From: Bacteroidales bacterium
GTDB taxonomy: Bacteria > Bacteroidota > Bacteroidia > Bacteroidales > GCA-2748055
NCBI GenBank assembly: GCA_023138875.1
Contig: JAGLOO010000031.1
Span: 1 to 64,000 of the forward strand
Reading direction: 5' to 3'
DNA length: 64,000 nt
Shown: positions 10,673 through 28,137 of the stretch, in pieces
Layout of the letters: each line of letters starts with the position of its first letter
Position numbering within the stretch: position 1 is the first letter of the stretch
Notes under the pieces: model-generated
What the model was told of the DNA's origin: nothing
Seen by the model: only the letters and a program-made list of their open reading frames with translations
Database searches by the model: none
Program-made: the position numbers and the translations under genes

Positions 10673-11107
10673 ATGACACATGAATATGAAATCGTGATGG
10701 TTGAAGACAATCCCAATGACGCCGAATTAATGATTCGCTCTTTAAACAAGCATCAGGTAGTTAACAGATTGATTGTACTCGAAGATGGTGAGCAGGCACT
10801 GAACTATTTTTTTTGCCGGGGTAAATATTCAGGTTGCGAATCAGCCAGATCGCCAAAGGTAGTATTTTTGGATTTCAAACTGCCGAAAGTAGACGGGCTG
10901 GAAGTATTAAGGCAACTGAAGTCGAATGAACAGACCAAGAAAATCCCAATCGTAATTGTGTCTTCTTCCAGCCAGGACACGGATATTGAGGCTGCATACA
11001 ATCTGGGAGCCAACAGCTACGTTGTAAAACCTGTTGAATTTGCTCAATTCAGGGAGAGGATTAATCAGTTAGGTTTTTATTGGTTAGTGATCAACGAATA
11101 TCGATGA
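10673..11107 (+). CDS. Rcp1-type single-domain response regulator
   Basis: 144 residues, a lone receiver domain of the type known from cyanobacterial phytochrome partner Rcp1. The acidic pair lies in MVEDNPNDAEL, the phospho-acceptor is Asp67 in VVFLDFKLPKVDG, and the conserved Ser and Lys-Pro lie in IVSSSS and VVKPVEF. The long insert after the third strand (CRGKYSGCESARSPK) is typical of the subfamily. Only two bases separate it from the propeller kinase, so the two are almost certainly co-translated partners. There is no output domain; it may pass the signal on by protein binding or phosphotransfer. Confidence 0.93.
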   Translation: MTHEYEIVMVEDNPNDAELMIRSLNKHQVVNRLIVLEDGEQALNYFFCRGKYSGCESARSPKVVFLDFKLPKVDGLEVLRQLKSNEQTKKIPIVIVSSSSQDTDIEAAYNLGANSYVVKPVEFAQFRERINQLGFYWLVINEYR

Positions 11108-11268
11108 TAAGCCATCGCCTGCGCCCTGGATAATTATTAAATGTATTAGCTATATAGTTGCATATCAGTACATATATGTTGTATATTAGGAATTGTTACC
11201 GATGAAATAGTTTTCGCAGCCTCTTTTTTGCAGAATAGTATTTTTTGCTTGTCAAATTTTCATTTGCT

Positions 11269-11385
11269 ATGAAGAATCAAGGCAAATTAATTGTATTCAG
11301 GATCGACAACCAGCAATTTGCATTGCACCTTCCCATTGTTGAAAGAATTGTCCGTTTGTACCGGACACTTAATGAGTTACCTTAA
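11269..11385 (+). pseudogene. CheW-like N-terminal remnant
   Basis: A short frame of 38 codons starts at ATG 11269 and ends at TAA 11383-11385. It contains KLIVFRIDNQQFALHLPIVE followed by RIVR. This matches the conserved start of CheW-domain adaptor proteins (form: FRLDGQ-YALPL-AVERVVR). A complete CheW is about 150 residues, so only about a quarter remains, and the reading frame runs directly into a fragment of a histidine kinase. I infer a deletion that fused a cheW-like gene to a kinase gene. It could be translated as a short peptide but would not fold as CheW. Confidence 0.7.
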
Positions 11386-11925
11386 AAATGTAAGAAATGG
11401 AAACGGAAAAGAAAATACTATTACTGATTTGCTTGATTTTTCCCGTATTGGACGCCAGGAAGTAAAAACGGTTGAAATAGATATGAGAAAACTTGCACAT
11501 GAGGTTTTTGATGAACTACGGCAAGTATATCCAAAACCTAATATTGAACTCAAACTTGGAGATATTCCACCAATTACCGGCGATAGAAACCTGATACGCT
11601 TCGTGTTTACAAACCTGATCTCAAATGCCATAAAATTTTCGGGGCACAAAAAGTTACGGAGATAGAGATAGGTTTCATGGAAAAGAACAAGAAACCTCAA
11701 TATTATGTAAAAGATAATGGCATAGGTCTCGATATGGACTACGTCGATAAAATTTTTGGGGTGTTTCAAAGGCTTCATTCTTCCGGAGAATTTGAAGGAA
11801 CAGGGGTGGGCCTGGCAATAGTTCAGAAAATAATTCATAAACATGGTAGGGAAGTAATGGCAGAGGGAGAAATGGATAAAGGTGCAGCTTTTTATTTTTC
11901 TTTACCAGCAACAGGAAAAAAATGA
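11386..11925 (+). pseudogene. Frameshifted C-terminal half of a histidine kinase (HisKA end-HATPase)
   Basis: Kinase sequence begins abruptly after the CheW remnant. The first part, in one frame, contains DLLDFSRIGRQEVKT and NLISNAIKF. After about position 11,640 the homology continues in another frame ([10 protein letters not shown], then [26 protein letters not shown] and the closing FYFSLP). One base is missing, most simply from the GGGG run near 11,640. The phosphoacceptor histidine and all sensor domains are absent. The tail matches the C-termini of the three kinases between 16,802 and 27,658, so this is a decayed copy of that family. A sequencing error could explain the frameshift but not the missing front half. 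Confidence 0.8.
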
Positions 11926-11944
11926 GTAAATGTTAACATTAAAT

Positions 11945-11948
11945 GGAG
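11945..11948 (+). promoter_or_regulatory. Shine-Dalgarno site deciding the mtaC-like start
   Basis: GGAG lies 5 bases before ATG 11954. This favours 11954 over an in-frame start 24 bases upstream, which would overlap the end of the kinase remnant region and add a non-conserved octapeptide. Confidence 0.55.
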
Positions 11949-11953
11949 AAATA

Positions 11954-12697
11954 ATGAAAACAAAAACTTCAAGCATTTTTACCCGATTCGACATCAATCT
12001 TGAGGTTGAAAAGCAGAAGGTAAGAAAGGTTTCCACGGATGAATTATTGCAAGAAGTAGCTGATTGCGTTGCTGAAGGAGATGATGACGAAATCGAAAAT
12101 ATTGTAAAAAATGTCCTGAAAACCAAAAGTCCAGTTAAAGTTATTGATGAAGGTTTGATCCCTGGCATGAATGAGGTTACCCGCCTGTGGGATGAAGGTG
12201 TATATTTTCTTCCACAGGTTATTCTCTCATCAGACACCATGATCGCGGGAATTGCCTTATGCGAAAAACGTATGGGAAAATTAATGGAAAAAAAAGGCAA
12301 GGTCGTTACCCACACTGCTGAAGGTGATATTCACGATATAGGACAGGTAATTGTTAATGCACTTTTGAATGCCGCCGGTTTTGAAGTAATCAATCTTGGA
12401 GCAGATGTACCGGTTGATGAAGTGGTTAAGGCTTGCAAGCTCCACAATCCCGTGATGCTGACAGGAACAGCATTGATGACAACTACGATGACTGCGTTTC
12501 CAAAGATTGCGGCAGAATTGAAAGAGTTAGGTCTGAATATACCGTTTGTTTGTGGCGGAGGCGCTGTAAGCGAGGAATATGTAATAAGTTTTGATTATGG
12601 TGTTTGGGGGAAAGAAGCCAGTCAGGCATCAGCTATGGCGGAAGATGCTCTTAAGGGTCTTAGTTGGCAAGAGATACGTAATAAATGGAATGGTTAG
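11954..12697 (+). CDS. mtaC: Methanol-type corrinoid protein (MtaC-like)
   Basis: 247 residues, cytoplasmic. The N-terminal helical cap (about 20-105; ELLQEVADCVAEGD and LIPGMNEVTRLWDEG) is the B12-binding_2 domain. The Rossmann domain (about 110-235) carries the cobalt-ligand motif GDIHDIG with His127, then the TGTALMTTT and FVCGGGAVS loops that hold the nucleotide tail. In this family the cobalt(I) corrinoid accepts a methyl group from the MtaB subunit. The length and the partner genes (mtaB-like 69 bases downstream, RamA-like activator after it) support a methanol-type protein rather than MetH or the methylamine MtmC/MttC group. Substrate is inferred from MtaB. Such systems are known from methanogens and acetogens and are rare in Bacteroidota. 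Confidence 0.9.
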   Translation: MKTKTSSIFTRFDINLEVEKQKVRKVSTDELLQEVADCVAEGDDDEIENIVKNVLKTKSPVKVIDEGLIPGMNEVTRLWDEGVYFLPQVILSSDTMIAGIALCEKRMGKLMEKKGKVVTHTAEGDIHDIGQVIVNALLNAAGFEVINLGADVPVDEVVKACKLHNPVMLTGTALMTTTMTAFPKIAAELKELGLNIPFVCGGGAVSEEYVISFDYGVWGKEASQASAMAEDALKGLSWQEIRNKWNG

Positions 12698-12752
12698 ATT
12701 AATGATTAAATGGTAAAATGGACATAAACACATTTACGCATTTAAATTAAAG

Positions 12753-12759
12753 AAAGGAG
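12753..12759 (+). promoter_or_regulatory. Shine-Dalgarno site of the mtaB-like gene
   Basis: AAAGGAG sits 7 bases before ATG 12767, a textbook ribosome binding site. Most genes elsewhere in this window lack one, as is usual in Bacteroidota. Confidence 0.6.
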
Positions 12760-12766
12760 TACAAAT

Positions 12767-14134
12767 ATGAAACTTACAAGTTCAATGGCATATAAAAACC
12801 CGCAAGAAATTATGTTTGGAAAAGCCATAAAACCTGTTATTACCAAACGTGGGCTTAAAATTGGAGGTGGTAATGTAATTCCTGAAATTGTTCCTCATCC
12901 CAGGCCGGGCAGAGAGAAAGATAAAGGAACCTTAATCCGGGAATTTGAACGTGCTAACGACGATGCTTTAGAGCGATGTGTTAACGTGGGGCATCCTTAT
13001 CTCGTGATAGAAAATGAACATATTTACCAGATGACAAATAATCCCTCCTGGGGAGGAGAAATTGCAGCCCAAACAGCCCACCAGATGGACGAATACAAAG
13101 ATAAGTACGGGCTTATTGCAGCATACCGTTCCACAATCGCAGACATTCGCAAGCCTGATATTGTAAATATGAGAGACTCCGATCAAACCCGAAAAGTATT
13201 TGAATCATTCAACGAATGCGCCAGACATTCAGATATTGTTTCAATTGAATCCATGGGTGGCAAAGAAATCTTTGACTATTCCATTATCCGAAACGATATT
13301 ACAGGAATGCTTTTCGCTCAGGCAATACTTGGAGGACGTGATGTAGAATGGATATGGAAACAGATTGTTAAAATAGCCAAAAAACACAACTGCATACCAG
13401 GCGGAGATACAGATTGTGCTCAGGCAAATACAGCAATGTTTATGGCAGGAGGTTTTCTCTCCAAAAATATCCCGCATACTCTCGCTGCTCTTTGCAGGGC
13501 TATAAGTGCCGGCCGGACCCTCGTTGCATATGAATGCGGTGCAACAGGCCCGGGCAAAGACTGCGCCTATGAAAATCCCATTATCAAAGCCATTACAGGA
13601 ATTCCTATCGCCACGGAGGGTAAAACCAGTGCATGTGCTCACTCTGCTCTTTGTGGTAATGTTATTGCTGCCGTGTGCGATCTCTGGTCTAACGAAGCAG
13701 TTGAATTCCACGATATGTTCGGTGGTTCCAGCGCTGCAGTGTTTACAGAGATTCTCGGATATGACGCAGCACTTATGAATGCATCTGTAGAGTTGGGATA
13801 CCAGAAGCAATTCCAGGCTTGCCTGATTGCATCCGACCGTTACCGCGATCCCCAGGCTTTTATTTTATGTCCTGACAATGCCTGGACTATCGGTAAAGCT
13901 ATCACAGATAACAGCGAAAGCTGTTTTACACGTGCCCGGGCTGCAGCTCTCAAATGTGGCGAATTAATACTTGGCGATCCAAAAATGATGCTAACTGCCT
14001 TTGAAAATAAATCACTATTGGACTATTTGAAGGAACTGGATTCTCTTCCGGATAATGAGGGCGACTTCATTGATATATGTTTAAAAAAATATAGTAAAGT
14101 AAAAGGATTTAATCCGGCTTCGTATGGATTTTAA
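12767..14134 (+). CDS. mtaB: Methanol:corrinoid methyltransferase (MtaB-like)
   Basis: 455 residues, the usual MtaB length. MtaB binds methanol at a zinc site and transfers its methyl group to the MtaC corrinoid. The ligands of Methanosarcina barkeri MtaB are Glu164, Cys220 and Cys269. Here Glu161 (VSIESMGGKE), Cys217 (GGDTDCAQANTAM) and Cys266 (GPGKDCAYENP) have exactly the same spacings (56 and 49 residues). The segments AYECGATGPGKDC and TEGKTSACAH also look family-specific. There is no in-frame TAG, unlike the pyrrolysine methylamine methyltransferases. The gene lies 69 bases after mtaC and 14 bases before the RamA-like gene. The substrate could still be another methylated alcohol or a methoxylated compound. 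Confidence 0.9.
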   Translation: MKLTSSMAYKNPQEIMFGKAIKPVITKRGLKIGGGNVIPEIVPHPRPGREKDKGTLIREFERANDDALERCVNVGHPYLVIENEHIYQMTNNPSWGGEIAAQTAHQMDEYKDKYGLIAAYRSTIADIRKPDIVNMRDSDQTRKVFESFNECARHSDIVSIESMGGKEIFDYSIIRNDITGMLFAQAILGGRDVEWIWKQIVKIAKKHNCIPGGDTDCAQANTAMFMAGGFLSKNIPHTLAALCRAISAGRTLVAYECGATGPGKDCAYENPIIKAITGIPIATEGKTSACAHSALCGNVIAAVCDLWSNEAVEFHDMFGGSSAAVFTEILGYDAALMNASVELGYQKQFQACLIASDRYRDPQAFILCPDNAWTIGKAITDNSESCFTRARAAALKCGELILGDPKMMLTAFENKSLLDYLKELDSLPDNEGDFIDICLKKYSKVKGFNPASYGF

Positions 14135-14148
14135 CCAAACCAGCTATT

Positions 14149-15795
14149 ATGACCCGATTAGGAATAGCAATAGATATAGGAACCAGCGGTATTCGCGCGC
14201 AAGCTATTAATTTGGCTTCGGGAGAAATTATTTCAACCGCTATTACCACATACCATCCTATACCTGGCGGGAATATCATAGATCATCTCCATTTTGCTTT
14301 GGAAATGGGAGTTGAAACAGCACAAAGTATGCTGGTCAATGCTGTCAATAAAGTTATAAATGAACTGCATGTGCAGACAAAAGATGTTGAGCGAATCGGG
14401 TTATGTGGTAATACTGTCCAGCTTTCTCTATTTCAAGGTATGGAAATCCGTGATTTGGCTTATACCGGAAAACGGAAGCTTGAGTCACTCGGTGTAGTTC
14501 CGCCAAAAAGAGATGCTGCAATTATAATAGCACGGGATATTGCAGAATTGGATTTGCCCGGGAGGTGTGAAGTAATCATTCCCCCCGCCATTAAACATGA
14601 AATCGGAGCAGATGCCCTCGCTATGATAATTCAAAGTGGAATACTTGAAAAAAACGAGACTTCTTTGGTAACTGATTATGGAACAAATGCTGAAATGGCA
14701 CTTTTTCACGAGGGACGTATTATCACCGGTTCCACAGCAGCAGGCCCCGCTCTCGAAGGACAGCAAATATCTTGTGGAATGCTTGCTGTTCCCGGTTCTA
14801 TTTCAGATATAGAATCTATTATTTCCGGTCATAGGGTTAAAGTATTGAATTCCCAAATGATACCTGTTGAGGGCTATACTGTTAATATTAATAATGGCAA
14901 TATTATCGACAAAATTAATAATTCACATCCGTTAGGGATTACAGGAACAGGAACAATTGCTATTATTGATCAGGCAATAGAAGCAAATATTATTACTATT
15001 CCACGTATTAATACTGATGATGCTAAGCTGCATTTTGGTGAAAATATTTATTTTACAGAACATGATCTTTTTGAAGCAGGAAAAGCTATTGGAGCGATAC
15101 GAACTGGTCACATAAGCCTTTGTCAGGAAGCCGGCATTGCTTTAAAAGATATCAGAAGCGTTTACATGTCAGGTGCTACAGGAACTTATGTGGATGCGAT
15201 AAAAGCACAAAAACTCGGGATGATCCCTTCACATGTAAAAACCGTTTATCAGATTGGGAACACTTCTCTTGCAATGGCAGTAGATTTAGTCAGGGATCCG
15301 AAAAATCTGGATATAATGGCCAATATCGCGAACAAACTCAGGAAAACCTATTACATGTTTGCTTCTTCCGAAACCTTTAAAAAAGTCTATATGTTGGAAA
15401 TCGCATTTTGGACAGAAGGTATGCCCATGTCACTTTACCGAAAATTCCTAAAAAGGTACGGCCTTAGCGATTTACTACCGGTAGAAAAAAAACCGAAAGT
15501 TATTCGCACTGTAAACCGTGATATCAAAGACCTTGGGCGGATGGGATTAACTATCATCCCGAAGATTGGTAGAACTACACAAGCAAAATTTAAAGGCTGT
15601 AGCTTATTAATGAAATGTATTGAAGAGTGTCCGGAAAATGCTATTTCAATCATCGGGGATACAAAACCTGCAACATTTGCCTTAGATCAATCCTTATGCA
15701 TTGGCATGGCCTGCAAACGTTGCGAACGGGTATGCCCGGAAAAGGTATTTAAGCTGAAAGATTTTTTTGTAAGACAAAATAAAAATGAAATGTAA
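14149..15795 (+). CDS. ramA: RamA-like corrinoid protein reductive activase
   Basis: 548 residues. The body is an ASKHA-fold ATPase of the DUF4445/RamA kind: AIDIGTSGIRAQAINL (11-20 region of the phosphate-1 loop), LVTDYGTNAEMAL (phosphate-2) and MSGATGTYVDA (adenosine). A C-terminal ferredoxin-like domain (about 480-535) holds Cys484, 490 and 494, then Cys517, 522, 525 and 529. RamA uses ATP and its iron-sulfur clusters to reduce accidentally oxidised cobalt(II) back to cobalt(I). Size and domain order fit methanogen RamA. The first cluster motif has Leu where the second of four cysteines normally sits, so that cluster may be [3Fe-4S], have another ligand, or be lost. The stop overlaps the next start (TAATG), which indicates translational coupling. 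Confidence 0.88.
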   Translation: MTRLGIAIDIGTSGIRAQAINLASGEIISTAITTYHPIPGGNIIDHLHFALEMGVETAQSMLVNAVNKVINELHVQTKDVERIGLCGNTVQLSLFQGMEIRDLAYTGKRKLESLGVVPPKRDAAIIIARDIAELDLPGRCEVIIPPAIKHEIGADALAMIIQSGILEKNETSLVTDYGTNAEMALFHEGRIITGSTAAGPALEGQQISCGMLAVPGSISDIESIISGHRVKVLNSQMIPVEGYTVNINNGNIIDKINNSHPLGITGTGTIAIIDQAIEANIITIPRINTDDAKLHFGENIYFTEHDLFEAGKAIGAIRTGHISLCQEAGIALKDIRSVYMSGATGTYVDAIKAQKLGMIPSHVKTVYQIGNTSLAMAVDLVRDPKNLDIMANIANKLRKTYYMFASSETFKKVYMLEIAFWTEGMPMSLYRKFLKRYGLSDLLPVEKKPKVIRTVNRDIKDLGRMGLTIIPKIGRTTQAKFKGCSLLMKCIEECPENAISIIGDTKPATFALDQSLCIGMACKRCERVCPEKVFKLKDFFVRQNKNEM

Positions 15796-16559
15796 TGGCA
15801 GTACTTGGTATCATTACTTGTGAAATTCTGGAGAATGAATTTGCTTATCTGCTTGGGAAAGACCAGGAAGTGGCCAAAATTACGATTTTGGAAGATTCCA
15901 AATCTGCCCGTCTGATCAAATTGCTTGAGTTAAAAGGAGTTAAAAATTTGCACCAAATCCCGCATATATCAAGTTTTTCGCCCAAACCTTCAGAGCATTT
16001 AGAGGTATTGGTACGTGTACTGGAAGTGGCACTTCACAGAAAGAAACATATATTGCAAAAAGGGATTGTTAGTGCTGCCCGGGAAATGAACCGCTATGTT
16101 GATGCATTCCTTCTGGGATATGGATTGTGTGGCAATGCCCTCAGAAATCCTATAGAACTGCTTGATGTTGATGTTCCTGTTTTTTACCCTGTTGACGATG
16201 ATCATCCGGTTGATGATTGTGTTAGTATGATTATGGGAGGAAGAGATTGTTACTATGCCGAACAATGCAGGATTCCGGGAACGTATTTTATGACACCCGG
16301 CTGGACTTATCATTGGAAAAGTATGTTTGGCCATAATCCCTGCAATATAGATTCTGATATACTAAAACGTGTTTTTAAAAAATATAAACGTTCCCTTTTG
16401 GTTTTGACACCTGTAATGCCTGAAGATGAAATGAAACAGAATACAGAGGAATTTGATAAGCTCTTAAAGCTTCAGGTTGAGGAACATAAAGGAACAATTG
16501 AAATTTTGAATACAGCCTGGAAAAAGGCAAAATCATTTATAAAGACTAAGATAGAATGA
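15795..16559 (+). CDS. DUF1638 protein linked to corrinoid methyltransferases
   Basis: 254 residues, soluble. The LLGYGLCGNAL, DDCVSMIMGGRDCYY and YFMTPGWT segments match my memory of the DUF1638 family, whose genes often neighbour corrinoid methyltransferases in methanogens and anaerobic bacteria. Biochemical function is unknown to me. The conserved Cys and His residues (GLCGN, DDHPVDDC, AEQCRIPGT) could bind a metal or cofactor. Its start overlaps the RamA-like stop, so it is the last gene of a mtaC-mtaB-ramA-DUF1638 operon. A role in corrinoid handling or methyltransferase maturation is an inference from position only. Confidence 0.85.
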   Translation: MAVLGIITCEILENEFAYLLGKDQEVAKITILEDSKSARLIKLLELKGVKNLHQIPHISSFSPKPSEHLEVLVRVLEVALHRKKHILQKGIVSAAREMNRYVDAFLLGYGLCGNALRNPIELLDVDVPVFYPVDDDHPVDDCVSMIMGGRDCYYAEQCRIPGTYFMTPGWTYHWKSMFGHNPCNIDSDILKRVFKKYKRSLLVLTPVMPEDEMKQNTEEFDKLLKLQVEEHKGTIEILNTAWKKAKSFIKTKIE

Positions 16560-16801: not shown

Positions 16802-19800
16802 ATGAAAATCACTAAAAAAGAACTGGAATCCCTGCCCTGTATCCACGAAGGAATTAATTCTTTGATTTATCGGCAGGATACGACTGAATATGGGAAATCA
16901 GTTGTTATTAAGATTTTAAAGCAGGAAAATCCGGTGCCTGAGGAAATTTCCAGGTTCGTTAATGAGTTTGAAATAATTAAGGATATTGATATTCCGGGAA
17001 TCCGGGCGGCATACGAAGTGGGAAAAATTGATGGAAAGCCGTTTATTATTCTTGAATATATTGAAGGATTAACCGTAAAGGAAGCATTTGTTAAACAAAC
17101 CAAAGGCCTTGAAGATATATTAACAGTAATGATATCTGCTACACAGTCATTAGTGGAAATACATCATCTTAAAATAATTCATAAAAACATCAACAGTAAT
17201 AATATACTCGTAAACCCCGGAGAACAAAAAGCAACTATCATTGATTTCAGTATTGCAACGAAAGCCGATTTCAAAAAAACCGGTCTTGTTAAACCAAAAG
17301 AGCCGGAAGGGATACTTCATTATAGTTCCCCGGAACAAACCGGCAGGATGGACCGCATTGTTGATTGGCGAACCGACTTTTACTCCATCGGTGTAGTATT
17401 TTATGAGATACTTACAGGGAAATTACCTTTTGAGACAACAGATGCATCTGAACTTGTCCATTTCCATATTGCCAAACATCCTGAGCCGGTAAGCAAGGTT
17501 AATCCTGATATTCCCGGGATTATTTCTGATATCGTCATGAAACTGATGGCAAAGAATGCCGAAGGCCGTTATCAATCAGCTTATGGCTTAAAATCAGATT
17601 TGGTAAACGGCCTGAATCAATTACAACAAACAGGTATGATTGAAGGGTTTGATTTAGCAGGGAAGGATTTTTCAGGCAGATTTCAGGTACCTCAGAAATT
17701 GTATGGCAGGGAACAGGAAATTCAAACCATAATCGAGGCATTTAACCGGATAAATAAAGGAACGAATGAAACCATTATGGTATCCGGCCTGCCCGGTGTG
17801 GGGAAATCTTCGCTTATCAGCGAAGCTAAAAAATATATAATTAAGAAGCGAGGCTGGTTCATATCAGGAAGTCACGACCAGTATCAAAGCAATATTCCTT
17901 ATTCAGCCCTGACTATGGCGTTTACCGGACTGGTTAACCGGATACTGGCCGATAGTGCACAGCAGCTATCTCAATGGAAAGAAAATATTATAAAAGCGGT
18001 AGGCACTAACGGACAACTGCTGATCGAAATGATTCCGGCTATGAAACTTATTATTGGTCCGCAGCCGCCTGTTCGGGAGATGAATCCCACGGAGGCACAA
18101 CACCGTTTTCATAATGTATTTCAGGATTTTATCAAAGCCATTGCTCAAAAAGAACATCCCCTGGTGTTGTTTATTGATAATTTGCAATGGGTAGATATTG
18201 CATCGGTAAATTTTATTAAATTTCTGATGACCGCCGCAGACAATCAATATTTATTATTCATAGGTGCATACCGCGATGATGAAACAGGGCCTGCTCATCC
18301 CCTGACAATGGCGGTTGAAAAAATGGGAAAAGCCAGGGCTGTTATCGACTCAATTCATCTGGAAAACATTAGCTCAGACACATTGAACCTTTTAATATCG
18401 AACTCCCTGCAATGTCAGCCGGATTATTCACAATGCTTATCGCGAATGATATATAAAAAAACCGGCGGGAATCCCTTTTTTGCTATCCGTTTTTTAATAT
18501 CACTGCATGAGGAAGGAGCACTCAGCTTTCATTTTGATAAGGGAAAATGGACGTGGGATGTTAGCCAAATCCGCAGAAAGAATATTACAGATGATATGGC
18601 TGCGTTTTTTGCACAAAAGATTGAGGAATTACCCGGAGACACGAAAAAAATACTAATAATTTCCGCTTGTATTGGAAATGCTTTTTCACTTAAAATGCTG
18701 GCAGATGTTGCAGGACAATCAGTAAGAGAAATATCTGATAGTCTTGGAAAAGCAGTTGAAGCTGGACTAATACAACCACTTGATGACAATTACAAGATGG
18801 TACTGATGATGAAAGAAGAACAGCATTCAGAAACAGAAATTAACTTCGAGTTTTCACATAAAAGAATTCGGGATGCTGCTGGTTCCATGATCTCGAAAAA
18901 ACAGAGGAGGTTGATTAATCTTACTATTGGAAGATTAAAATTAGAAAATACGAAAGAGAAAGAATTAGAGAAAAACATTTATGAAATTGCGGATCATTTT
19001 AATGAGGGTTTCCGGTACATTAAAGATGAAGAAGAGCAGCTCAGCCTGGCGAAATTAAACCTCATTGCCGGGCGAAAAGCGAAAAATGCAGCAGCATTTC
19101 AATCAGCAATCTGGTACCTGAGTATGGGTATTGGACTGCTGAAACCGGATAAATGGGTTCGTTACTATGAATTAGCATTAAAACTTTACCTGGAAGCTGT
19201 TGAAGCGGAATACCTTTGTTCAAATTTTGAGAGGGCAGAACTGTTATCCGGAGAAATCCTGCAGCATGCTAAGGAGCTTCCGGAAAAGATCAAAGTCTAT
19301 GAACTTAGTATTCTGTTTTACACAGCACAAAACCTGAATTCCGCGGCAATCGGTTCCGGACTTGAAGCCCTTGAAATTTTAGGAGTCTCTCTCCCAACAG
19401 AACCGGGGGAGATCAAGAGTTATATTGAGAAGTCTTACAACGAGCTGTCCGAAAAAGTCGAACCAATTGAAGATTTAGCCAGCTTACCAAAGATGCGCAA
19501 CACTCATCAATTGGCGGCAATGCGGATATTGATGAATATGGTAGCTCCGGTTCACAAGGCCAGGCTTGGGCTGTTGCCGGTGATTGTCCTCAAAATGGTT
19601 AGCATGTCTGTTAAACACGGAAACTCTCCCACAACAGCTTTTGTTTATGGAAGTTATGCGGCAATTTTAATCGATGTTTTCGAAGACATTGAGAAGGGTT
19701 ATCAGTTCGGCAAGTTGTCCATGAAAATGCTGGAGAAATTCGATACTACAGAACTCAGGGCGAAAGTTATTTTTATGTTCAACACTTTTGTAAAGCACTG

Positions 19801-22800
19801 GAAAAAACATGCTACCGAAACAATAAAACCTTTGCTGGAAGCCTATCAATATGGAATTGAAACAGGAGATTTGGAATATGCCTATTACGGAGCTTTAAAC
19901 CATTGCAGTTATATGTTTTGTACAGGTGTGCCTTTGGAAGATATTCGGGACAAACAGGCGAAATATCTTGAGGAAACAGAAAGATTCCGGTTAAAGTTTC
20001 ACAGTGATTTCGGGAATGTTTGGGCTCAAATGGTATTAAATTTAATGGGCAGCTCATTGGATCCATGCCAATTGAAAGGTGAATTATTTGATGAATCAGA
20101 AATGTTGCCGGTTTGGAAAGAACAGAATAATGGTATTCTGATTTTTTGCACTTACTGCTGCCGGACTATTCTGCAGTATATATTCGGAAAATATGCTGAT
20201 GCAATAGAATCAGCCCGTATGGCGGAAGAATATAAAGAGGGTGCAACAGCATTTATCTATTATCCCGAACACGATTTCTACTATGCACTGGCGCTTTTAG
20301 CGGAATATCTGCGGGTCGATGTCGATACGAAAACAGAGTACCTGGGAAAAGTGGATAAGATTCAGGAAAAATTCCGGCAATGGGCTAAACTTGCCCCAAT
20401 GAATTTTCAGCATAAATACGACCTGATTGAGGCAGAAAGATCTCGGGTATCAGGAGAAACACTTAAAGCAATGGCGCTTTATGACCGTGCAGCAAAGGGC
20501 GCCAGGGAACAGAACTATATCCAGGAGGAAGCCCTGACTTATGAACGGCAAGCCGGGTTCTATATGGAATCAGGCATAGAGGAATTTTCCCAAACCTGCA
20601 TGTTCAGGGCTTATGATTGTTATCGTAACTGGGGTGCGGTGCGCAAATCTGCTGATCTGGAAGAAAGGTGCAGTTATCTTTCAACAAAGGAAGCTGCAGT
20701 TTCATTAGATACGAAAACCATCATAAAGGCCTCTCACATGCTCTCCCGGGAAATACGCCTGGACCGGCTTCTTGATAAAATGATGCACATTGTTATTGAA
20801 AATGCAGGCGCGCAAAAAGGCATATTAATCCTGAACAAGGACAACAGGCTTATCATTCAGGCAAAAGGCGAAATTGAGCAGAAACAAGTTGAAACAATGC
20901 AGGCAATACCCATTGAAGAGAGTAAAGAAATTCCACTCTCGATAGTGAATTACGCGGCACGGACGAAAACGCCCGTTGTATTAAATGATGCCTCTCGAGA
21001 CAGCACTTATGCTGCCGATAAATACATCATAAAACATCAGCCAAAATCACTGATGTGCCTGCCGATTGTCCATCAGAATAAACTTTCAGGATTGTTATAC
21101 TTAGAAAACAACCTGACAACAAATGCCTTTACACCGGACCGGCTGGAATTATTAAAGGCGCTCTCTGCACAGGCTGCTATCTCAATAGAGAATGCCGGCC
21201 TTTATACCAATCTGGAAGAAAGGATCAAAGAGCGTGAACTGGCGGAGGAGGCATTGAGGGAGAGTGAAGAACGCTTCCGTAACCTTGTGGAGAGCACTTC
21301 TGACTGGGTATGGGAGGTGGATCAGAACGGCGTTTACACCTATGTTAATCCCAATGTGTGCGAATTGTTAGGATACGATGTTGACGAATTACTGGGTAAG
21401 ACGCCGTTTGATTTCATGCCGCCCGGGGAAGCTAAACGGATCGCCACCTCTTTTGGAAGCATTGTGGCATTACAAAAGCCCATTACGAACCTGGAAAACA
21501 TCAATGTCCATAAAGACGGGCATCTTGTGTACCTGGAAACCAGTGGGGTTCCTTTTTTCTCGCCAAACGGTGAGCTGCTAGGATACAGAGGTATAGACCG
21601 CGATATTACTGAACGCAAACTATTTGAACAGACCCTGCGCGAGAAGGAGGAGAGATTCAGAGGTCTGGTCACCAATATCCCGGGCGCCATCTATCGCTGC
21701 GCCGTCGATGCTGACTGGACGATGCACTTTATAAGTGATACCATAGAGGAAATATCAGGATACCCCGCATCTGACTTTGTGCAAAATAAGGTTCGAACAT
21801 TCGCGAGCATCATACATCCTGATGACTTGAAAATGGTCGAAAGAACCGTGCATGAGGGCCTGAAGCGGAAAGAGGCCTATATCATCGAATATCGCATAAT
21901 CAACGCTGATGGCAACGTACATTGGGTTTATGAAAGAGGGCAGGGTTTTTTTGGAGATAGCAGGGAGGCTCTCTGGCTTGACGGGGCTGTCTTTGACATC
22001 ACCGAGCGTAAGCAGGCAGAAGAAGTACTTCAATTAAATGAATACAGGATTAAAACCCGGTTAAAACTACATCAAATGGCTTGGGCAAAAGAGAAAGAAA
22101 TTATGGATTTTTCTCTCGAAGGGATGCTCAATATTACTGAAAGCAAAATCGGGTACATTGCTTTTATGAATGATGATGAAACCGTATTAACCATGTATTC
22201 ATGGACAGCGGGAGTAATGAAAGAATGCAAGGTTGCAGGCAATCCAATTATTTACCCTGTTGAGAATACCGGTTTGTGGGGAGAGGCTGTGCGCCGGCGA
22301 AAAGCTGTTATCACGAACGATTACGTTGCCCCTAATCCTCTTAAGAAAGGGATTCCGGATGGTCATATAAAGATTGTCAGGCATATGAATGTGCCTGTTT
22401 TTGACGGTGACAGGATCGTTATGGTTGCCGGGGTTGGAAACAAAGAGGAGTCTTACAACGATTCGGATGCCAATCAGTTAACCATGATGATGTCTGACAC
22501 ATGGCAGCTTGTTCAAAAAAGGCGTGTCGAAGAAGAACTAAAAAAACACCGCGACCATTTAGAAGAATTAGTAAAAGAACGGACCAAAGAACTGGAAGCA
22601 TTTTCCTATTCCGTATCCCACGACCTGCGGGCACCCTTGCGTGCAATTGATGGATTTTCAGAAATCCTTTCAGGTGACTATAAAGATAAACTGGATGATG
22701 AAGCCAAACGACTGATAAAGATTATAAGAAAGAATACACATAATATGAGCCAGCTTATTACCGATCTGCTTGATTTTTCACGTTTAGGTCGCCAGCAGAT

Positions 22801-23254
22801 AAAAACTGTTAAAATAAATATGAAAGCCCTTGTCCGTGAAGTTTTTGATGAACTAAAGGAAATATATCCAAAGCGTAATATCAAATTTAAGCTCAGGGAA
22901 ATTCCACCGGCAACCGGCGACATAAACCTGATACGCCTCGTATTTTCGAACCTGATTTCAAATGCCATAAAATTCACGGAGCCCAGAAAAATTGCTGGGA
23001 TAGAGATCGGCTCCCTGCAAAAGAACAATCAACTTTTTTATTACGTGAAAGATAATGGTGTGGGTTTCGAAATGAAATACGCAGATAAGATTTTCAGGGT
23101 CTTTCAAAGGCTTCATTCTTCCGAAGAATTTGAAGGAACCGGGGTGGGCCTGGCAATAGTTCAGAAAATAATTCATAAACATGGTGGGGAAGTGATAGCA
23201 GAAGGGGAAGTTGACAAGGGTGCAACGTTTTATTTTTCTTTACCAGAAGAATAA
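16802..23254 (+). CDS. Giant multidomain kinase: Ser/Thr-kinase-like, AAA ATPase, TPR-like, GAF, PAS, PAS, GAF, HisKA, HATPase
   Basis: 2,150 residues. A protein-kinase fold (about 10-265) has the ATP lysine Lys37 (VVIKIL) and Asp148 of DFS in place of DFG. The catalytic HRD motif reads HKN, with Asn129 where the catalytic Asp belongs, so it may be a pseudokinase. An AAA_16-type ATPase (300-520) has Walker A GLPGVGKS with Lys335 and a Walker B ending at Asp459. A long helical TPR-like region (about 650-1290) leads to GAF (1304-1465), PAS (1485-1610), PAS (1615-1740), a second GAF (1755-1905) with Cys1809, HisKA with [12 protein letters not shown], His1940, and HATPase to the end. This layout is known as a multi-sensor multi-kinase, common in cyanobacteria. 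It directly follows the methyltransferase operon. Soluble; no membrane segment. Confidence 0.92.
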   Translation: MKITKKELESLPCIHEGINSLIYRQDTTEYGKSVVIKILKQENPVPEEISRFVNEFEIIKDIDIPGIRAAYEVGKIDGKPFIILEYIEGLTVKEAFVKQTKGLEDILTVMISATQSLVEIHHLKIIHKNINSNNILVNPGEQKATIIDFSIATKADFKKTGLVKPKEPEGILHYSSPEQTGRMDRIVDWRTDFYSIGVVFYEILTGKLPFETTDASELVHFHIAKHPEPVSKVNPDIPGIISDIVMKLMAKNAEGRYQSAYGLKSDLVNGLNQLQQTGMIEGFDLAGKDFSGRFQVPQKLYGREQEIQTIIEAFNRINKGTNETIMVSGLPGVGKSSLISEAKKYIIKKRGWFISGSHDQYQSNIPYSALTMAFTGLVNRILADSAQQLSQWKENIIKAVGTNGQLLIEMIPAMKLIIGPQPPVREMNPTEAQHRFHNVFQDFIKAIAQKEHPLVLFIDNLQWVDIASVNFIKFLMTAADNQYLLFIGAYRDDETGPAHPLTMAVEKMGKARAVIDSIHLENISSDTLNLLISNSLQCQPDYSQCLSRMIYKKTGGNPFFAIRFLISLHEEGALSFHFDKGKWTWDVSQIRRKNITDDMAAFFAQKIEELPGDTKKILIISACIGNAFSLKMLADVAGQSVREISDSLGKAVEAGLIQPLDDNYKMVLMMKEEQHSETEINFEFSHKRIRDAAGSMISKKQRRLINLTIGRLKLENTKEKELEKNIYEIADHFNEGFRYIKDEEEQLSLAKLNLIAGRKAKNAAAFQSAIWYLSMGIGLLKPDKWVRYYELALKLYLEAVEAEYLCSNFERAELLSGEILQHAKELPEKIKVYELSILFYTAQNLNSAAIGSGLEALEILGVSLPTEPGEIKSYIEKSYNELSEKVEPIEDLASLPKMRNTHQLAAMRILMNMVAPVHKARLGLLPVIVLKMVSMSVKHGNSPTTAFVYGSYAAILIDVFEDIEKGYQFGKLSMKMLEKFDTTELRAKVIFMFNTFVKHWKKHATETIKPLLEAYQYGIETGDLEYAYYGALNHCSYMFCTGVPLEDIRDKQAKYLEETERFRLKFHSDFGNVWAQMVLNLMGSSLDPCQLKGELFDESEMLPVWKEQNNGILIFCTYCCRTILQYIFGKYADAIESARMAEEYKEGATAFIYYPEHDFYYALALLAEYLRVDVDTKTEYLGKVDKIQEKFRQWAKLAPMNFQHKYDLIEAERSRVSGETLKAMALYDRAAKGAREQNYIQEEALTYERQAGFYMESGIEEFSQTCMFRAYDCYRNWGAVRKSADLEERCSYLSTKEAAVSLDTKTIIKASHMLSREIRLDRLLDKMMHIVIENAGAQKGILILNKDNRLIIQAKGEIEQKQVETMQAIPIEESKEIPLSIVNYAARTKTPVVLNDASRDSTYAADKYIIKHQPKSLMCLPIVHQNKLSGLLYLENNLTTNAFTPDRLELLKALSAQAAISIENAGLYTNLEERIKERELAEEALRESEERFRNLVESTSDWVWEVDQNGVYTYVNPNVCELLGYDVDELLGKTPFDFMPPGEAKRIATSFGSIVALQKPITNLENINVHKDGHLVYLETSGVPFFSPNGELLGYRGIDRDITERKLFEQTLREKEERFRGLVTNIPGAIYRCAVDADWTMHFISDTIEEISGYPASDFVQNKVRTFASIIHPDDLKMVERTVHEGLKRKEAYIIEYRIINADGNVHWVYERGQGFFGDSREALWLDGAVFDITERKQAEEVLQLNEYRIKTRLKLHQMAWAKEKEIMDFSLEGMLNITESKIGYIAFMNDDETVLTMYSWTAGVMKECKVAGNPIIYPVENTGLWGEAVRRRKAVITNDYVAPNPLKKGIPDGHIKIVRHMNVPVFDGDRIVMVAGVGNKEESYNDSDANQLTMMMSDTWQLVQKRRVEEELKKHRDHLEELVKERTKELEAFSYSVSHDLRAPLRAIDGFSEILSGDYKDKLDDEAKRLIKIIRKNTHNMSQLITDLLDFSRLGRQQIKTVKINMKALVREVFDELKEIYPKRNIKFKLREIPPATGDINLIRLVFSNLISNAIKFTEPRKIAGIEIGSLQKNNQLFYYVKDNGVGFEMKYADKIFRVFQRLHSSEEFEGTGVGLAIVQKIIHKHGGEVIAEGEVDKGATFYFSLPEE

Positions 23255-23288
23255 GATTTGGTTTAATTTTATAACGAAAGGTTTAAAA

Positions 23289-25547
23289 ATGAATGATAAA
23301 CAGAAACTTGGTTTTACAGGTAACCGAAAATGGGTGATTTTAACTGTGTTTTTCTTCTTTGTGTTAGTGCATTCCACTGCCTTTACTCAAGAAAATCAGG
23401 TTAAAATAGGGGTTCTGGCAAAGAGGGGGCACGATATTACTTTAAAACTATGGGAGCCAACAGCTGAGTATCTGTCAGCTAAAATACCGGGTAAAACATT
23501 TGTGATTGTACCGATTCCCTTTGAACAGATTTACTCATTTGTTGAAAATGGAAAAGTAGATTTTATTCTTGCCAATTCTTCCTTCTATGTGGAACTGGAA
23601 CATTGGTATGGCGCCAATCGGCTCGTGACATTGAAAAACCTGCGTACAGATGGTGTTTATACCGAATTTGCAGGAGTGATTTTTTGTAAGGCAAACCGGG
23701 GCGACATTCGGGAATTGACAGATATTAAAGGTAAAACATTTATGGCCGTCAAAGAGACCTCATTGGGAGGCTGGAGGATGGCCTGGCGTGAGTTTAAAGA
23801 GTTAGGGATTGATCCGTATCATGACTTTAAAGCACTGAGTTTTGGCGGAACACACGACGCCGTCGTCTATGCGGTAAGAGATGGAGAAGTTGACGCCGGG
23901 ACAATCAGAACCGATGTATTTGAACGGATGCAAGCCGAGGGGAAAATCGATATTAAAGACTATTACGTGGTTCCATACAAAGGCGGGAAAACCGTGAAAT
24001 TTCCTTTTCTTCATTCAACCCGCGGATATCCGGAATGGCCAATGGCAAAAGTCAGACATACGTCCGATACCCTGGCGGAAAAGGTGGCAGTCGCACTGCT
24101 TGAAATGCCACCAAATTCTGACGCCGCCAAAGCCGGGCAATGCGCTGGATGGACAATCCCTATGAATTACCAGTCGGTGCATGAATGTTTAAGAGAGCTG
24201 AAAGTCGGTCCTTACAAGGACCTGGGAAAAATCACTCTAGCCAGCCTTATCCAACAATACTGGCCTTGGATACTGCTTGGGTTCATTGGTATTATTATCC
24301 TTGTTGCTGTTACAATTTATGTAATCCGGTTGAACCGCAAACTAAAGATAAGTACAATTGAACTAAGAGAATCCCGTAACATATTGGAGCAAAAAGTTGA
24401 AGAAAGAACTTCCGAACTCAGGCAGAGCAATCAATCACTCCAAAAAGAAAATATGGATCGCAGACAGGCAGAGAAAGCACTTCAAATGGAGCGGGATAAT
24501 TTTAAGAACATATTAGGATCGATGGAGGATGGAGTTTACATAGTTAATAAGGAATACGAAATTGAATATCTTAATCCGATGATAATAAAAGAGTTTGGCC
24601 CTGTAAATACACATAATTGCTATGAGTATTTACATGGGCGAACAGAAGTTTGTCCATGGTGTAAGATACTTGATGTTCTGGCGGGAAAAACCGTTCGTTG
24701 GGAATGGTATTCATCTAAAAATCAGAGGACGTATGACCTGATTGATACCCCGTTTAGAAATCCTGATGGCAGTATCTCGAAGCTCGAAATATTCCGCGAT
24801 ATTACCAAGCGTATGCACGTCGAAGAAGAACTAAAAAAACACCGCGAGCACTTAGAAGAAATGGTAAAAGAACGAACCCAAGAACTGGAAGGCTTTTCTT
24901 ATTCTATATCGCACGACCTGCGGGCACCCTTGCGTGCAATTAATGGATTTTCAGAAATCCTTTCAGATGATTATAAAGATAAATTAGATGAAGAAGCCAA
25001 ACGCCTGTTAAACATAATAAGAAAGAATTCACTGAATATGAACCAGCTTATTACTGATCTGCTTGATTTTTCACGTTTAGGGCGCCAGCAGTTAAAAACT
25101 GTTAAAATAGATATGAAAGCCCTTGTAAGGAAAATATTTGATGAACTAAAGGAAATATATCCAAAGCGTAATATCGAATTTAAACTTGGAGAAATTCCAC
25201 CGGCAACCGGCGACAGGAACCTGGTACGCCTCGTGTTTGTAAACCTGATTTCAAATGCCATAAAATTCACGGAACCCGGGAAAATTGCCAGGATAGAGAT
25301 CGGCTCCTTGCAAAAGAATAAGCAACTTTTTTATTACGTGAATGATAATGGTATAGGTTTCGAAATGAAATACGCCGGTAAGATTTTCGGAGTCTTTCAA
25401 AGGCTTCATTCTTCCGGAGAATTTGAAGGAACAGGGGTGGGCCTGGCAATAGTTCAGAAAATAATTCATAAACACGGTGGGGAAGTGATAGCAGAGGGCG
25501 AAGTGAATAAGGGTGCAACATTTTATTTTTCATTACCAAAAGAGTAA
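23289..25547 (+). CDS. PhnD-like periplasmic-binding sensor histidine kinase (TtrS-like architecture)
   Basis: 752 residues when started at ATG 23289. The longer frame reading back into the upstream kinase lacks conservation. A signal sequence (hydrophobic 14-33) is followed by a periplasmic substrate-binding domain of the PhnD type (about 38-305; VKIGVLAKRG, DFILANSSFY, GWTIPMNYQSVHECLREL). Then come a membrane helix (about 326-348), a coiled coil, PAS (400-510) with a cysteine cluster (CYEYLHGRTEVCPWC), HisKA with [12 protein letters not shown], His542, and HATPase ending in FYFSLPKE. Sensor kinases with this periplasmic fold include tetrathionate sensor TtrS; the ligand here is unknown. 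Its last 700 bases are near-identical to those of the next kinase. AAAGG lies 10 bases before the start. Confidence 0.9.
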   Translation: MNDKQKLGFTGNRKWVILTVFFFFVLVHSTAFTQENQVKIGVLAKRGHDITLKLWEPTAEYLSAKIPGKTFVIVPIPFEQIYSFVENGKVDFILANSSFYVELEHWYGANRLVTLKNLRTDGVYTEFAGVIFCKANRGDIRELTDIKGKTFMAVKETSLGGWRMAWREFKELGIDPYHDFKALSFGGTHDAVVYAVRDGEVDAGTIRTDVFERMQAEGKIDIKDYYVVPYKGGKTVKFPFLHSTRGYPEWPMAKVRHTSDTLAEKVAVALLEMPPNSDAAKAGQCAGWTIPMNYQSVHECLRELKVGPYKDLGKITLASLIQQYWPWILLGFIGIIILVAVTIYVIRLNRKLKISTIELRESRNILEQKVEERTSELRQSNQSLQKENMDRRQAEKALQMERDNFKNILGSMEDGVYIVNKEYEIEYLNPMIIKEFGPVNTHNCYEYLHGRTEVCPWCKILDVLAGKTVRWEWYSSKNQRTYDLIDTPFRNPDGSISKLEIFRDITKRMHVEEELKKHREHLEEMVKERTQELEGFSYSISHDLRAPLRAINGFSEILSDDYKDKLDEEAKRLLNIIRKNSLNMNQLITDLLDFSRLGRQQLKTVKIDMKALVRKIFDELKEIYPKRNIEFKLGEIPPATGDRNLVRLVFVNLISNAIKFTEPGKIARIEIGSLQKNKQLFYYVNDNGIGFEMKYAGKIFGVFQRLHSSGEFEGTGVGLAIVQKIIHKHGGEVIAEGEVNKGATFYFSLPKE
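25065..25318 (+). repeat. 254-bp direct repeat, copy 1 (kinase C-terminus)
   Basis: These bases, within the HisKA-HATPase part of the PhnD-type kinase, are identical base for base to 27176-27429 in the GAF-PAS kinase 2,111 bases downstream. Both third codon positions and amino acids agree. The flanks diverge, so the tract looks like recent duplication or gene conversion rather than selection on protein. Confidence 0.9.
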
Positions 25548-25806: not shown

Positions 25807-25819
25807 GAAGAATATAAAA

Positions 25820-27658
25820 ATGGAAATTGACTACCAAAAGCATGAAGTGCCGGAAGAGTATCTGGAGAAGTGGCAAAAGACGGTAGACCTCATGGCCAGG
25901 CTATTTGAAGTTTCGGCTGGATTGATTATGCGCGTTGGTCCAGAACAGATAGAGGTTTTGGTGTCAAGTCAGTCAGAAGGTAATCCTTACAAACGTAGTG
26001 AAAAAGCCGATTTAGGAACAGGATTATACTGTGAAACCGTAATGGAGAGTCGATCGCAATTACAAGTGCCCAATGCACTGCAGGATGAGGATTGGAAGGA
26101 TAAACCTGACGTAAAGATAGATATGATTTCCTACCTTGGCATACCGTTGATTTGGCCTGACGATAAAATCTTTGGAACCATTTGTGTGCTTGAAAGAAAA
26201 ACAAGGAATTTTTCCAAGCTTTACCAGTCTTTACTATGGGAGTTTAAGGGAATCATCGAAGGCGATTTTAGAATCATCCAACAGAACCAAGAAATTAAAC
26301 AGGAAAATACCTACTGCAAGCAGGCAGAGACAGCCCTGCAACACTCCCACGATGAGTTAGAGTTGCGAGTGCAAGAGCGTACCGCCCAACTGTCCGATTC
26401 CAATATTCAATTGCAGCAGGAAATATATGAGCGCAAGCGGGCAGATGAAATGATCCGGCAGCAGTTGGATGAACTGGATAAATCGCGCCATGCACTGCTG
26501 AGCATCCTGGAAGACGCTAAGCGTAGTGAAGAGGCGTTGAAAGAGAGTGAAAGAAGACTGAAAGAGTCACAGCAAGTCGCGCGCATCGGTCAATGGGACT
26601 TGGATATAGTGACTAAACAGCTCTATTGGTCCGATGGAATGTATGATCTTTTTGAAGTTGATCCTGATAAATTTACCCCTTCTTTAGAGGCTTTTGATAA
26701 TGTGATTCTTCCGGAGGAAAGAGATTTTTTGCATAAAGCTTACTTCGAATCTGTAAAAAACAAGACCCCTTATGATATTATTCATCGTTTGCTCCTCAAA
26801 GATGGAACGATTAAATATGTAAATGAAATATGTCGCACAGAATACGATAAAGATGGAAATGCGATTCGATCAATAGGAACAATACAGGATATAACAGAAC
26901 TCAAACGAGCCGAAGAAGAACTAAAAAAGCACCGGGATCACCTTGAAGAATTGGTAAAAGAACGAACCAAAGAACTGCAAGCCGCCAATCAAGAACTGGA
27001 AGCGTTTTCATATTCTGTATCGCACGACCTGCGCGCACCGTTGCGGGCTATTAATGGATTTTCAGAAATCCTTTCGAGTGATTACAGAGATCAATTAGAT
27101 GAAGAAGCCAAGCGCCTGATAAACGTAATAAGAAAGAATACACAGGATATGAGCCAGCTTATTACTGATCTGCTCGATTTTTCACGTTTAGGGCGCCAGC
27201 AGTTAAAAACTGTTAAAATAGATATGAAAGCCCTTGTAAGGAAAATATTTGATGAACTAAAGGAAATATATCCAAAGCGTAATATCGAATTTAAACTTGG
27301 AGAAATTCCACCGGCAACCGGCGACAGGAACCTGGTACGCCTCGTGTTTGTAAACCTGATTTCAAATGCCATAAAATTCACGGAACCCGGGAAAATTGCC
27401 AGGATAGAGATCGGCTCCTTGCAAAAGAACAAGCAACTTTTTTATTACGTGAAAGATAATGGTGTAGGTTTCAAAATGGATTACATCGGTAAGATTTTCA
27501 AGGTCTTTCAAAGGCTTCATTCTTCCGAAGAATTTGAAGGAACAGGGGTGGGCCTGGCAATAGTTCAGAAAATAATTCATAAACACGGTGGGGAAGTGAT
27601 AGCAGAGGGCGAAGTGAATAAGGGTGCAACATTTTATTTTTCATTGCAAAAGGAATAA
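25820..27658 (+). CDS. GAF-PAS sensor histidine kinase
   Basis: 612 residues starting at ATG 25820. The 38 extra upstream codons of the open frame belong to the decayed kinase remnant and are not part of this protein. Domains: GAF (about 10-170; [13 protein letters not shown] and [11 protein letters not shown]), a long coiled coil (180-250), PAS (255-370, ending ITELKRAEE), HisKA with [12 protein letters not shown], His402, and HATPase (about 500-610) with GTGVGLAI. No membrane segment. Its C-terminal third is nearly the same as that of the preceding PhnD-type kinase. The Rcp1-type receiver 26 bases downstream is the probable phosphate acceptor. Confidence 0.92.
27176..27429 (+). repeat. 254-bp direct repeat, copy 2 (kinase C-terminus)
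   Basis: Identical to 25065-25318. Downstream of the perfect tract the two genes differ by scattered substitutions and match closely again over the last 140 bases. Confidence 0.9.
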
Positions 27659-27684: not shown

Positions 27685-28137
27685 ATGGGAACAAAAGTAA
27701 TTGAGATTCTCCTTGTTGAGGACAACCCAAACGATGTGGAGCTTACTTTAAGAGCTCTCAAAAAAAACAACCTGGCTAACAAAGTTCATGTTGTAACAGA
27801 TGGTGCTGAAGCCCTGGATTATGTTTTTGCCAAAAATAAGTATTCAGTGCGAAATATTGAAGATATACCCAAAGTGATATTACTAGATCTAAAACTTCCC
27901 AAAATTGATGGATTGGAAGTACTTAAAAAGATTAAGTCCGATGAAAAAACAAAAACCATTCCTGTTGTTGTACTCACATCTTCAAAAGAGGAAAGTGATA
28001 TCATCGAGAGTTACAAATTAGGAGTTAACAGCTATATTGTAAAACCGGTTAATTTTGATCAGTTCGTTAAATCGGTTTCTGAATTGGGATTATACTGGCT
28101 TCTGCTTAACGAAGGACCAAAACCTGATATAGTTTGA
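27685..28137 (+). CDS. Rcp1-type single-domain response regulator
   Basis: 150 residues. A lone receiver with the acidic pair in [11 protein letters not shown], phospho-acceptor Asp68 in [13 protein letters not shown], Thr-Ser in VVLTSSKEE and Lys-Pro in IVKPVNF. It shares the Rcp1-type insert and the closing GLYWLLLNE with the regulator at 10673, so the two are paralogues. Each follows a kinase of the HDLRAPLRA class, which in many bacteria pairs with such regulators. No output domain. It ends the plus-strand signalling island. Confidence 0.94.

Follow-up and report, generated by a model that had tools for sequence, protein, structure and literature searches.

A corrinoid methyltransferase cassette followed by a giant hybrid histidine kinase in a Bacteroidales genome: a putative enzyme-based sensor of methyl compounds

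The window analysed here, a stretch of 64,000 nucleotides (nt) from a Bacteroidales bacterium (contig JAGLOO010000031.1 of assembly GCA_023138875.1, positions 1 to 64,000), carries a four-gene corrinoid methyltransferase cassette followed on the same strand by the gene of a giant hybrid kinase, and a sensory role of the methyltransferase is, on balance, the interpretation favoured in this account. The plus-strand cassette comprises mtaC (11954-12697), encoding an MtaC-like corrinoid protein with the two B12-binding domains PF02607 and PF02310, mtaB (12767-14134), encoding a methanol:corrinoid methyltransferase, ramA (14149-15795), encoding an ATP-dependent corrinoid reductive activase with RACo domains, and a gene for a DUF1638 protein (15795-16559), with intergenic spacings of 69, 14 and -1 nt. 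The open reading frame (ORF) of mtaC extends from its first ATG over 11930-12697, the second ATG at 11954 being the start that fits its relatives. The original prediction of four ordered, tightly spaced and intact genes was borne out, all four being same-strand ORFs within 11930-16559; the end that it set to the operon at DUF1638 was wrong, since the kinase gene at 16802-23254 continues it.

By profile and tree, MtaB is of the methanol:corrinoid type. It matches PF12176 over its full length (677 bits, profile positions 2-460 of 460) and the M. barkeri MtaB structure 2i2x_A over residues 4-455 with 482.6 bits; the 668.6 bits against NF040651 lie below the strict NCBIfam equivalog cut-off of 720. 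The zinc ligands Glu161, Cys217 and Cys266, named beforehand from the sequence, are all present, and among the relatives grouped with this protein below, Glu161 is kept in 10/10 rows that reach this residue (locus L016 ends before it) and both cysteines in 11/11. The best NCBIfam MtaC match of the corrinoid protein, 267.8 bits, is below the equivalog cut-off of 420, and a DIHDIG motif is found in MtaC of all nine related rows that have an mtaC. RamA scores 754.7 bits against TIGR04270, above the cut-off of 500, with an incomplete first 4Fe-4S motif in which three of four cysteines remain and one is replaced by leucine. The DUF1638 protein, recognized by PF07796 with 113.5 bits, gave an AF2 model of a compact alpha/beta fold (mean predicted local distance difference test, pLDDT, 91.7). 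Neither a putative aspartate racemase (best Z 9.7, 158 residues, 3.9 Å) nor a PrpR sensor domain (Z 7.8) resembles this fold closely enough for a function to be assigned. The genome of the window (G000; 4.79 Mb, 87 contigs, 99.6% complete) holds a single MtaB match.

The hybrid kinase (16802-23254, plus strand) has 2150 residues and, according to Pfam, consists of a Ser/Thr kinase-like domain, AAA_16, a helical middle, GAF, two PAS, a second GAF, HisKA and HATPase. The Ser/Thr domain is a pseudokinase, the aspartate of its HRD motif being changed to asparagine. Residues 490-1310 were modelled (pLDDT 78.5) as a superhelix of tetratricopeptide repeats (TPRs), which superimposes on MalT domain III with Z 22.6 over 341 residues at 4.3 Å and on a phage Rap protein with Z 23.5; the best Foldseek match is a STAND ATPase with TPRs. 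The output of the window kinase is a histidine kinase, in contrast to the DNA-binding domain of the STAND regulator MalT. MalT is controlled by enzymes that dock on it, and by analogy this is the kind of coupling that may be proposed for the cassette and the kinase.

A scan of 84,980 species genomes, which requires exact peptide matches and is not exhaustive, yielded 66 MtaB loci, nine of them at 69-78% identity and the others at 50% or less. The window, these nine close loci and the later-found genome G700 form one clade of 11 rows with 100/100 support in maximum-likelihood trees. The clade stands on a long stem of 0.7 changes per column, which leaves room for a methyl donor other than methanol; methanol as ligand rests on homology. 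It adjoins the MtaB of Methanosarcinaceae (100/99 and 100/98 in two trees, midpoint root), so that the phylogenetic check suggested with the original prediction places the protein within the methanol:corrinoid enzymes; the remaining Bacteroidota MtaB of the trees lie far from the clade. Its named bacterial hosts belong to six phyla (Bacteroidota, Spirochaetota, Fermentibacterota, Desulfobacterota, Pseudomonadota and Planctomycetota), and one row is from a metagenome-assembled genome (MAG) of a methanogen, Methanospirillaceae. This breadth, together with end branches of just 0.02-0.31, points to horizontal spread, provided that the MAGs are clean. A methanol-type operon had been considered unusual for Bacteroidota. 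The type is supported as above, but MtaB matches at E<=1e-20 occur in 14/393 genomes of the window's order, 13 of them at 39-43% identity, which rules out the idea that MtaB is unheard of in this phylum. A search of 392 Spirochaetota genomes yielded G061 alone, and an MtaB search of plasmids and viral contigs gave no match.

In eight of the 11 clade genomes (the window, G061, G062, G064, G065, G068, G069 and G700) ramA and DUF1638 are directly followed by the giant kinase. The kinase-linked order is seen at six loci (the window, L007, L009, L010, L013 and L016), with the contig ending before mtaC is reached in L009 and L016. In G061, ramA-DUF1638-kinase lie on one contig and mtaC-mtaB on another beside a truncated ramA; at the latter locus (L006, G061:C85) a CobW/GTPase-like gene, recognized by eye, stands between mtaB and the truncated ramA. 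G700, a one-contig genome of 4,155,851 bases, has the full mtaC-mtaB-ramA-DUF1638-kinase order. The DUF1638 and kinase genes overlap, stop on start, by 4 nt in G061, G062, G064 and G068 (L007, L009, L013, L162), whereas the overlap in G065 (L010) is 1 nt. In L010, a Methylococcales MAG, mtaC is immediately preceded by genes for a histidine kinase of the MoxY type (LapD_MoxY_N) and for a receiver-domain protein (L010:3867-5859).

Neighbourhoods of 8 kb were compared by means of our own profiles between the 11 clade loci and 69 control mtaB loci (mean flank 12.0 and 11.6 kb, respectively; two of the controls, L068 and L159, are copies of a single contig, and L003, L004 and L005 are not in the set). 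The giant kinase is within reach at 7/11 clade loci, that of G061 on its other contig being the eighth, against 0/69 controls, and any histidine-kinase, receiver or giant-kinase match at 9/11 against 4/69. DUF1638 is found at 9/11 against 2/69 and a RamA-type activase at 11/11 against 18/69. For URO-D (uroporphyrinogen decarboxylase family) or pterin methyltransferases the proportion is reversed (0/11 against 25/69). One should recall that the clade rows share ancestry: Fisher p-values for these counts overstate the linkage, which represents one event retained and not many gains. Their shared inheritance strongly supports a joint action of MtaB, MtaC, RamA, DUF1638 and the kinase.

The kinase itself belongs to a wider family. 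Used as bait, it detected at least 14 other genomes at E<=1e-60 among 393 of the window's order and at least 22 at E<=1e-100 among 395 of the phylum of G063, two candidates being scored per genome. In 20 stretches of 3-18 kb around such kinases, the cassette occurred only at G700, whose kinase was the best match of the 395 (42% identity). The eight linked kinases fall on one side of a 100/100 branch from 30 unlinked ones, four cyanobacterial plasmid copies included, as they did from 26 in an earlier tree, unlinked meaning that the fetched stretch holds no mtaB (a few kb only for L121, L170, L174-L176 and L182). The four plasmid copies, from Nostoc and Oscillatoria, are 38-41% identical to the query over 99% of its length. 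The Pkinase-AAA-GAF-HisK layout is shared with hybrid Ser/Thr-histidine kinases of the HstK type, which occur in cyanobacteria and elsewhere. Unlike these, the linked kinases form a group of their own, are sited in mta operons and have an altered input end: the HRD aspartate is kept in 1/8 linked against 19/25 unlinked kinases, and a Cys-Ile-His motif stands at the expected start of the glycine loop, with the cysteine in 7/8 and the histidine in 8/8 linked kinases as compared with 0/25 and 1/25 unlinked ones.

The closest known system is MtaABC with RamA of Methanosarcina, which has MtaB, its zinc ligands, the MtaC motif and RamA in common with the window and provides the nearest relatives in the MtaB tree. 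The window differs in that no MtaA was found beside the cassette, and DUF1638 and the giant sensor kinase complete the operon. No MtaA-type (URO-D) second methyltransferase lies within 8 kb of any of the 11 clade loci. A methyl-unloading methyltransferase had been reported missing by the original prediction; this holds for the neighbourhood of the cassette but not for the genome, as contig C18 encodes a methyl-tetrahydrofolate (methyl-THF):corrinoid methyltransferase (NF005719, 270.6 bits against a cut-off of 259). It is grouped with a different corrinoid protein, a RACo activase, formate-THF ligase (851 bits) and methylenetetrahydrofolate reductase (MTHFR) in L105:6051-14333, likely a corrinoid demethylation-to-formate route in this Bacteroidota genome; an AraC-like regulator and a formate-transporter-like gene of the same group were recognized by eye. 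The two explanations offered with the prediction, an acceptor elsewhere or another use, both remain in play, the former through the C18 enzyme and the latter through the recurring sensor kinases and response regulators.

The window genome has eight URO-D matches. On its contig C35, divergent URO-D methyltransferases flank an alpha-L-fucosidase-like gene, identified by eye (L107:1745-5706, L108:3292-4518), and perhaps remove O-methyl groups from sugars. In ten clade genomes, G700 not among them, MtrH was found once, in the methanogen MAG G067, and URO-D gave no match in G062, G063, G064 and G067, within the limits of gaps in the MAGs. Pterin-binding proteins were classed as FolP-like or MetH-like by length and score, again in incomplete MAGs. 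Standalone matches of neither class occur in G000, G061, G063 and G069. G062 and G064 contain one FolP-like and one MetH-like protein of about 790 residues each and gave no MtrH match. In G068 two matches are FolP-like and one is MetH-like, and two URO-D pieces complement each other and could belong to one protein. Outside the clade, mtaB, mtaC-like and pterin methyltransferase genes are adjacent in Deltaproteobacteria MAGs (L042, L050, L051, L056, L057, L059 and L069), gene sets as would be expected for a THF-coupled methanol system.

The layout of the mta cassette, that is, corrinoid protein, methyltransferase, DUF1638 and sensor, is repeated by a non-homologous module with a URO-D methyltransferase. 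On contig C48 of G065, a row encodes a RACo activase, a corrinoid protein, a URO-D methyltransferase, DUF1638, a histidine kinase and a receiver-PAS-GGDEF-EAL protein. In G066 (G066:C86:17443-36560; L166, L167), such a module adjoins the mta cassette in a single minus-strand run: genes for a histidine kinase, corrinoid protein, URO-D protein and DUF1638 are followed by those for a 1546-residue GAF/PAS protein, an Fe-alcohol dehydrogenase and a PAS protein of 1082 residues, and these by mtaC-mtaB-ramA-DUF1638. The URO-D proteins of both genomes are 49% identical to each other and far below the MtaA cut-offs (G065: 60 against 400). Along these lines, plasmid pAZKH of Azoarcus sp. KH32C (271288-276437; L225) encodes, within a methylotrophy island, a corrinoid protein, a URO-D protein with 29.6% identity and then a 590-residue histidine kinase, likely a DUF1638-histidine kinase fusion; these genes are flanked by formylmethanofuran and quinoprotein-dehydrogenase genes. 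The Thiodictyon plasmid pTs417 (38703-43694; L230) has one run of genes for a corrinoid protein, a URO-D protein, RACo and a diguanylate cyclase with a GAF domain (GAF-GGDEF). Viral contigs searched with the URO-D protein contained no relative.

It is somewhat probable, in our estimate, that the cassette constitutes the sensory input of a phosphorelay, in which the corrinoid methyltransferase would serve to detect a methyl compound, for instance methanol, and not to feed on it. This reading draws on the lack of an unloading enzyme nearby, the altered input end of the kinase and the repetition of the design with another methyltransferase, and furthermore on the MoxY-type neighbours in L010 and the methylotrophy neighbours in Azoarcus. 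The main rival is a kinase that only regulates catabolism: MtaBC would demethylate methanol and the methyl group would pass to THF by way of a methyltransferase encoded at a distance, to be oxidised or excreted as formate. We regard this as unlikely, albeit as a serious alternative.

Several observations weigh against the sensory reading, some of them by favouring the catabolic one. The C18 gene set of the same genome, with its methyl-THF:corrinoid methyltransferase, formate-THF ligase and MTHFR, and the pterin-binding candidates in G061, G063 and G069 indicate that an acceptor may exist. The URO-D and corrinoid proteins of G066, 9.7 kb before mtaC and thus outside the 8-kb count, belong to the same gene run, and the URO-D protein could serve as acceptor. 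The mec cassette of dichloromethane degraders likewise pairs corrinoid methyltransferase genes with a two-component system and contains methyltransferases I and II (MTI and MTII) with a catabolic role backed by proteomics (PMC9768040); unlike mec, the window cassette has no MTII in its 8-kb neighbourhood and is joined to a kinase of the STAND type. The kinase link has exceptions as well. In the window the kinase begins 242 nt past DUF1638; L011 and L012 carry sensors other than the giant kinase (in L012 a PAS histidine kinase and regulator before the cassette and a PAS/GAF/PocR protein after it); the 1546- and 1082-residue GAF/PAS proteins before mtaC in L011/G066 gave no kinase-domain match; at L008, next to a contig end, nothing but receiver domains is seen ahead of mtaC; and ramA of L006 is broken. 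The N-terminus of the Azoarcus kinase scores 22.5 bits against DUF1638, below the Pfam cut-off of 27, and neither our own DUF1638 profile nor BLASTP found anything there.

On the other hand, the catabolic alternative has to account for the absence of URO-D and pterin methyltransferases from the clade neighbourhoods, for G062 and G064, which have neither a URO-D nor an MtrH match and only FolP-like or MetH-like pterin proteins, and for G068, with the same two pterin classes and two URO-D pieces. Furthermore, eight of the 11 genomes have kept the kinase beside the cassette, and in five it overlaps DUF1638. A biosynthetic cassette, supplying methyl groups to methionine or THF while the kinase monitors the redox or B12 state, appears quite improbable. 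Its basis is that DUF1638 and a RamA-like protein are required for methionine synthesis in Phaeobacter inhibens (PMC5764234), and that several clade genomes encode MetH-like proteins. The pairing of DUF1638 with a RamA-type activase in this B12 reactivation is as in the window, but it serves methionine synthase, whereas the window pair sits with a methyltransferase and a kinase. No methionine-synthase part is among the Pfam-annotated neighbours of the cassette.

The surroundings of the cassette are devoted to signalling. All ORFs retained in 138-28137 are on the plus strand except for one small antisense ORF, and those annotated other than the cassette encode sensor kinases and response regulators. 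Upstream, a single-domain response regulator (10673-11107, plus strand; PF00072) is by BLASTP 68-69% identical to the regulators right behind the kinase in G062 and G064, and a broken histidine-kinase transmitter remnant with interrupted frames (11396-11908, plus strand) is a copy of the giant kinase's own transmitter; beside it, in 11108-11929, lies a short frame whose start looks CheW-like by eye. Downstream of the giant kinase follow, on the plus strand, a phosphonate-binding-like domain (PF12974, 128 bits) fused to a histidine kinase with HisKA and HATPase (23286-25547), a GAF-PAS histidine kinase (25814-27658) and a second single-domain response regulator (27688-28137), 52% identical to that at 10673. 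The transmitter module of the giant kinase (22460-23251) shares 85-86% identity with its counterparts in the two kinases that follow (24753-25544 and 26843-27655). One module is hence found on three different sensors, with the remnant as a broken fourth, which has 78-83% DNA identity to the copies 22756-23246, 25049-25539 and 27160-27650; the repetition suggests a recent domain spread inside the signalling cluster. In other hosts the gene after the kinase encodes a receiver-HD protein (G068), or the following genes encode receivers, a hybrid kinase and an HD protein (G061), so that turnover of c-di-GMP (cyclic diguanylate) is a possible output in some of them.

The guanine plus cytosine (GC) content is about 0.40 up to ~28.2 kb and about 0.47 from 28.4 kb, with a concomitant step in GC3 (GC at third codon positions), and the low-GC side, at the contig end, holds the plus-strand signalling genes and the cassette. 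Contig chimerism had been named as a possible refutation, to be looked for at 11.9 or 16.6 kb. No lasting composition break is present at either point; that at ~28.2 kb decides the matter neither way. A chimeric contig, in which the cassette would be real but foreign to this Bacteroidota genome, is very improbable in our view. This step, with the cassette on its outer side, would fit such an origin, as would tetranucleotide frequencies unlike those of most other stretches of the genome (r 0.72-0.90 for seven of them, and r 0.90 for a stretch of another genome, G066), but the low-GC side agrees well with one A+T-rich stretch from elsewhere in its own genome (r 0.95), and in a second Bacteroidota MAG the cassette is part of a contig of 175 kb (L011). 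The operon as such is independent of this point, being present in the one-contig genome G700. An Rfam scan of 1-30000 gave no hit, and promoter and terminator scans did not depart from chance (19 where the mean is 15.8, and 3 against 4.3).

In the sensory reading, MtaB would take the methyl group from methanol, or from a closely similar donor, and load it on MtaC with its corrinoid in the Co(I) state, and methyl-MtaC would accumulate according to supply, because no dedicated unloading enzyme is encoded beside the cassette. RamA would bring oxidised corrinoid back to Co(I), such that the sensor is reset and operates under reducing conditions. MtaC, perhaps via DUF1638, may dock on the giant kinase in its pseudokinase/STAND-TPR region and set the activity of the histidine-kinase end, which would phosphorylate the single-domain response regulator at 10673-11107; the two neighbouring kinases with near-identical transmitters could feed extra signals into the same regulators.

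More tentatively, and with somewhat less confidence, a general class of enzyme-based chemosensors may be envisaged, in which MtaB-type and, independently, URO-D/MtaA-CmuA-type methyltransferases would combine with a corrinoid protein, DUF1638 and an activase into exchangeable inputs for histidine kinases and c-di-GMP enzymes, in aerobes and anaerobes; the signal would be the methylation state of a B12 protein, reporting methanol or other methyl donors. To our knowledge, bacterial methanol sensing is poorly known, and a full-text literature search, with subscription papers and preprints mostly outside its range, returned no proposal of a corrinoid methyltransferase as a sensor. Since methylotrophy is readily deduced from the presence of mtaB, annotations based on it would mislead if this clade is a sensor. 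DUF1638 would then gain a role in signalling, and the covalent methyl state of B12 as a signal would be a new principle, contained in a compact and portable operon.

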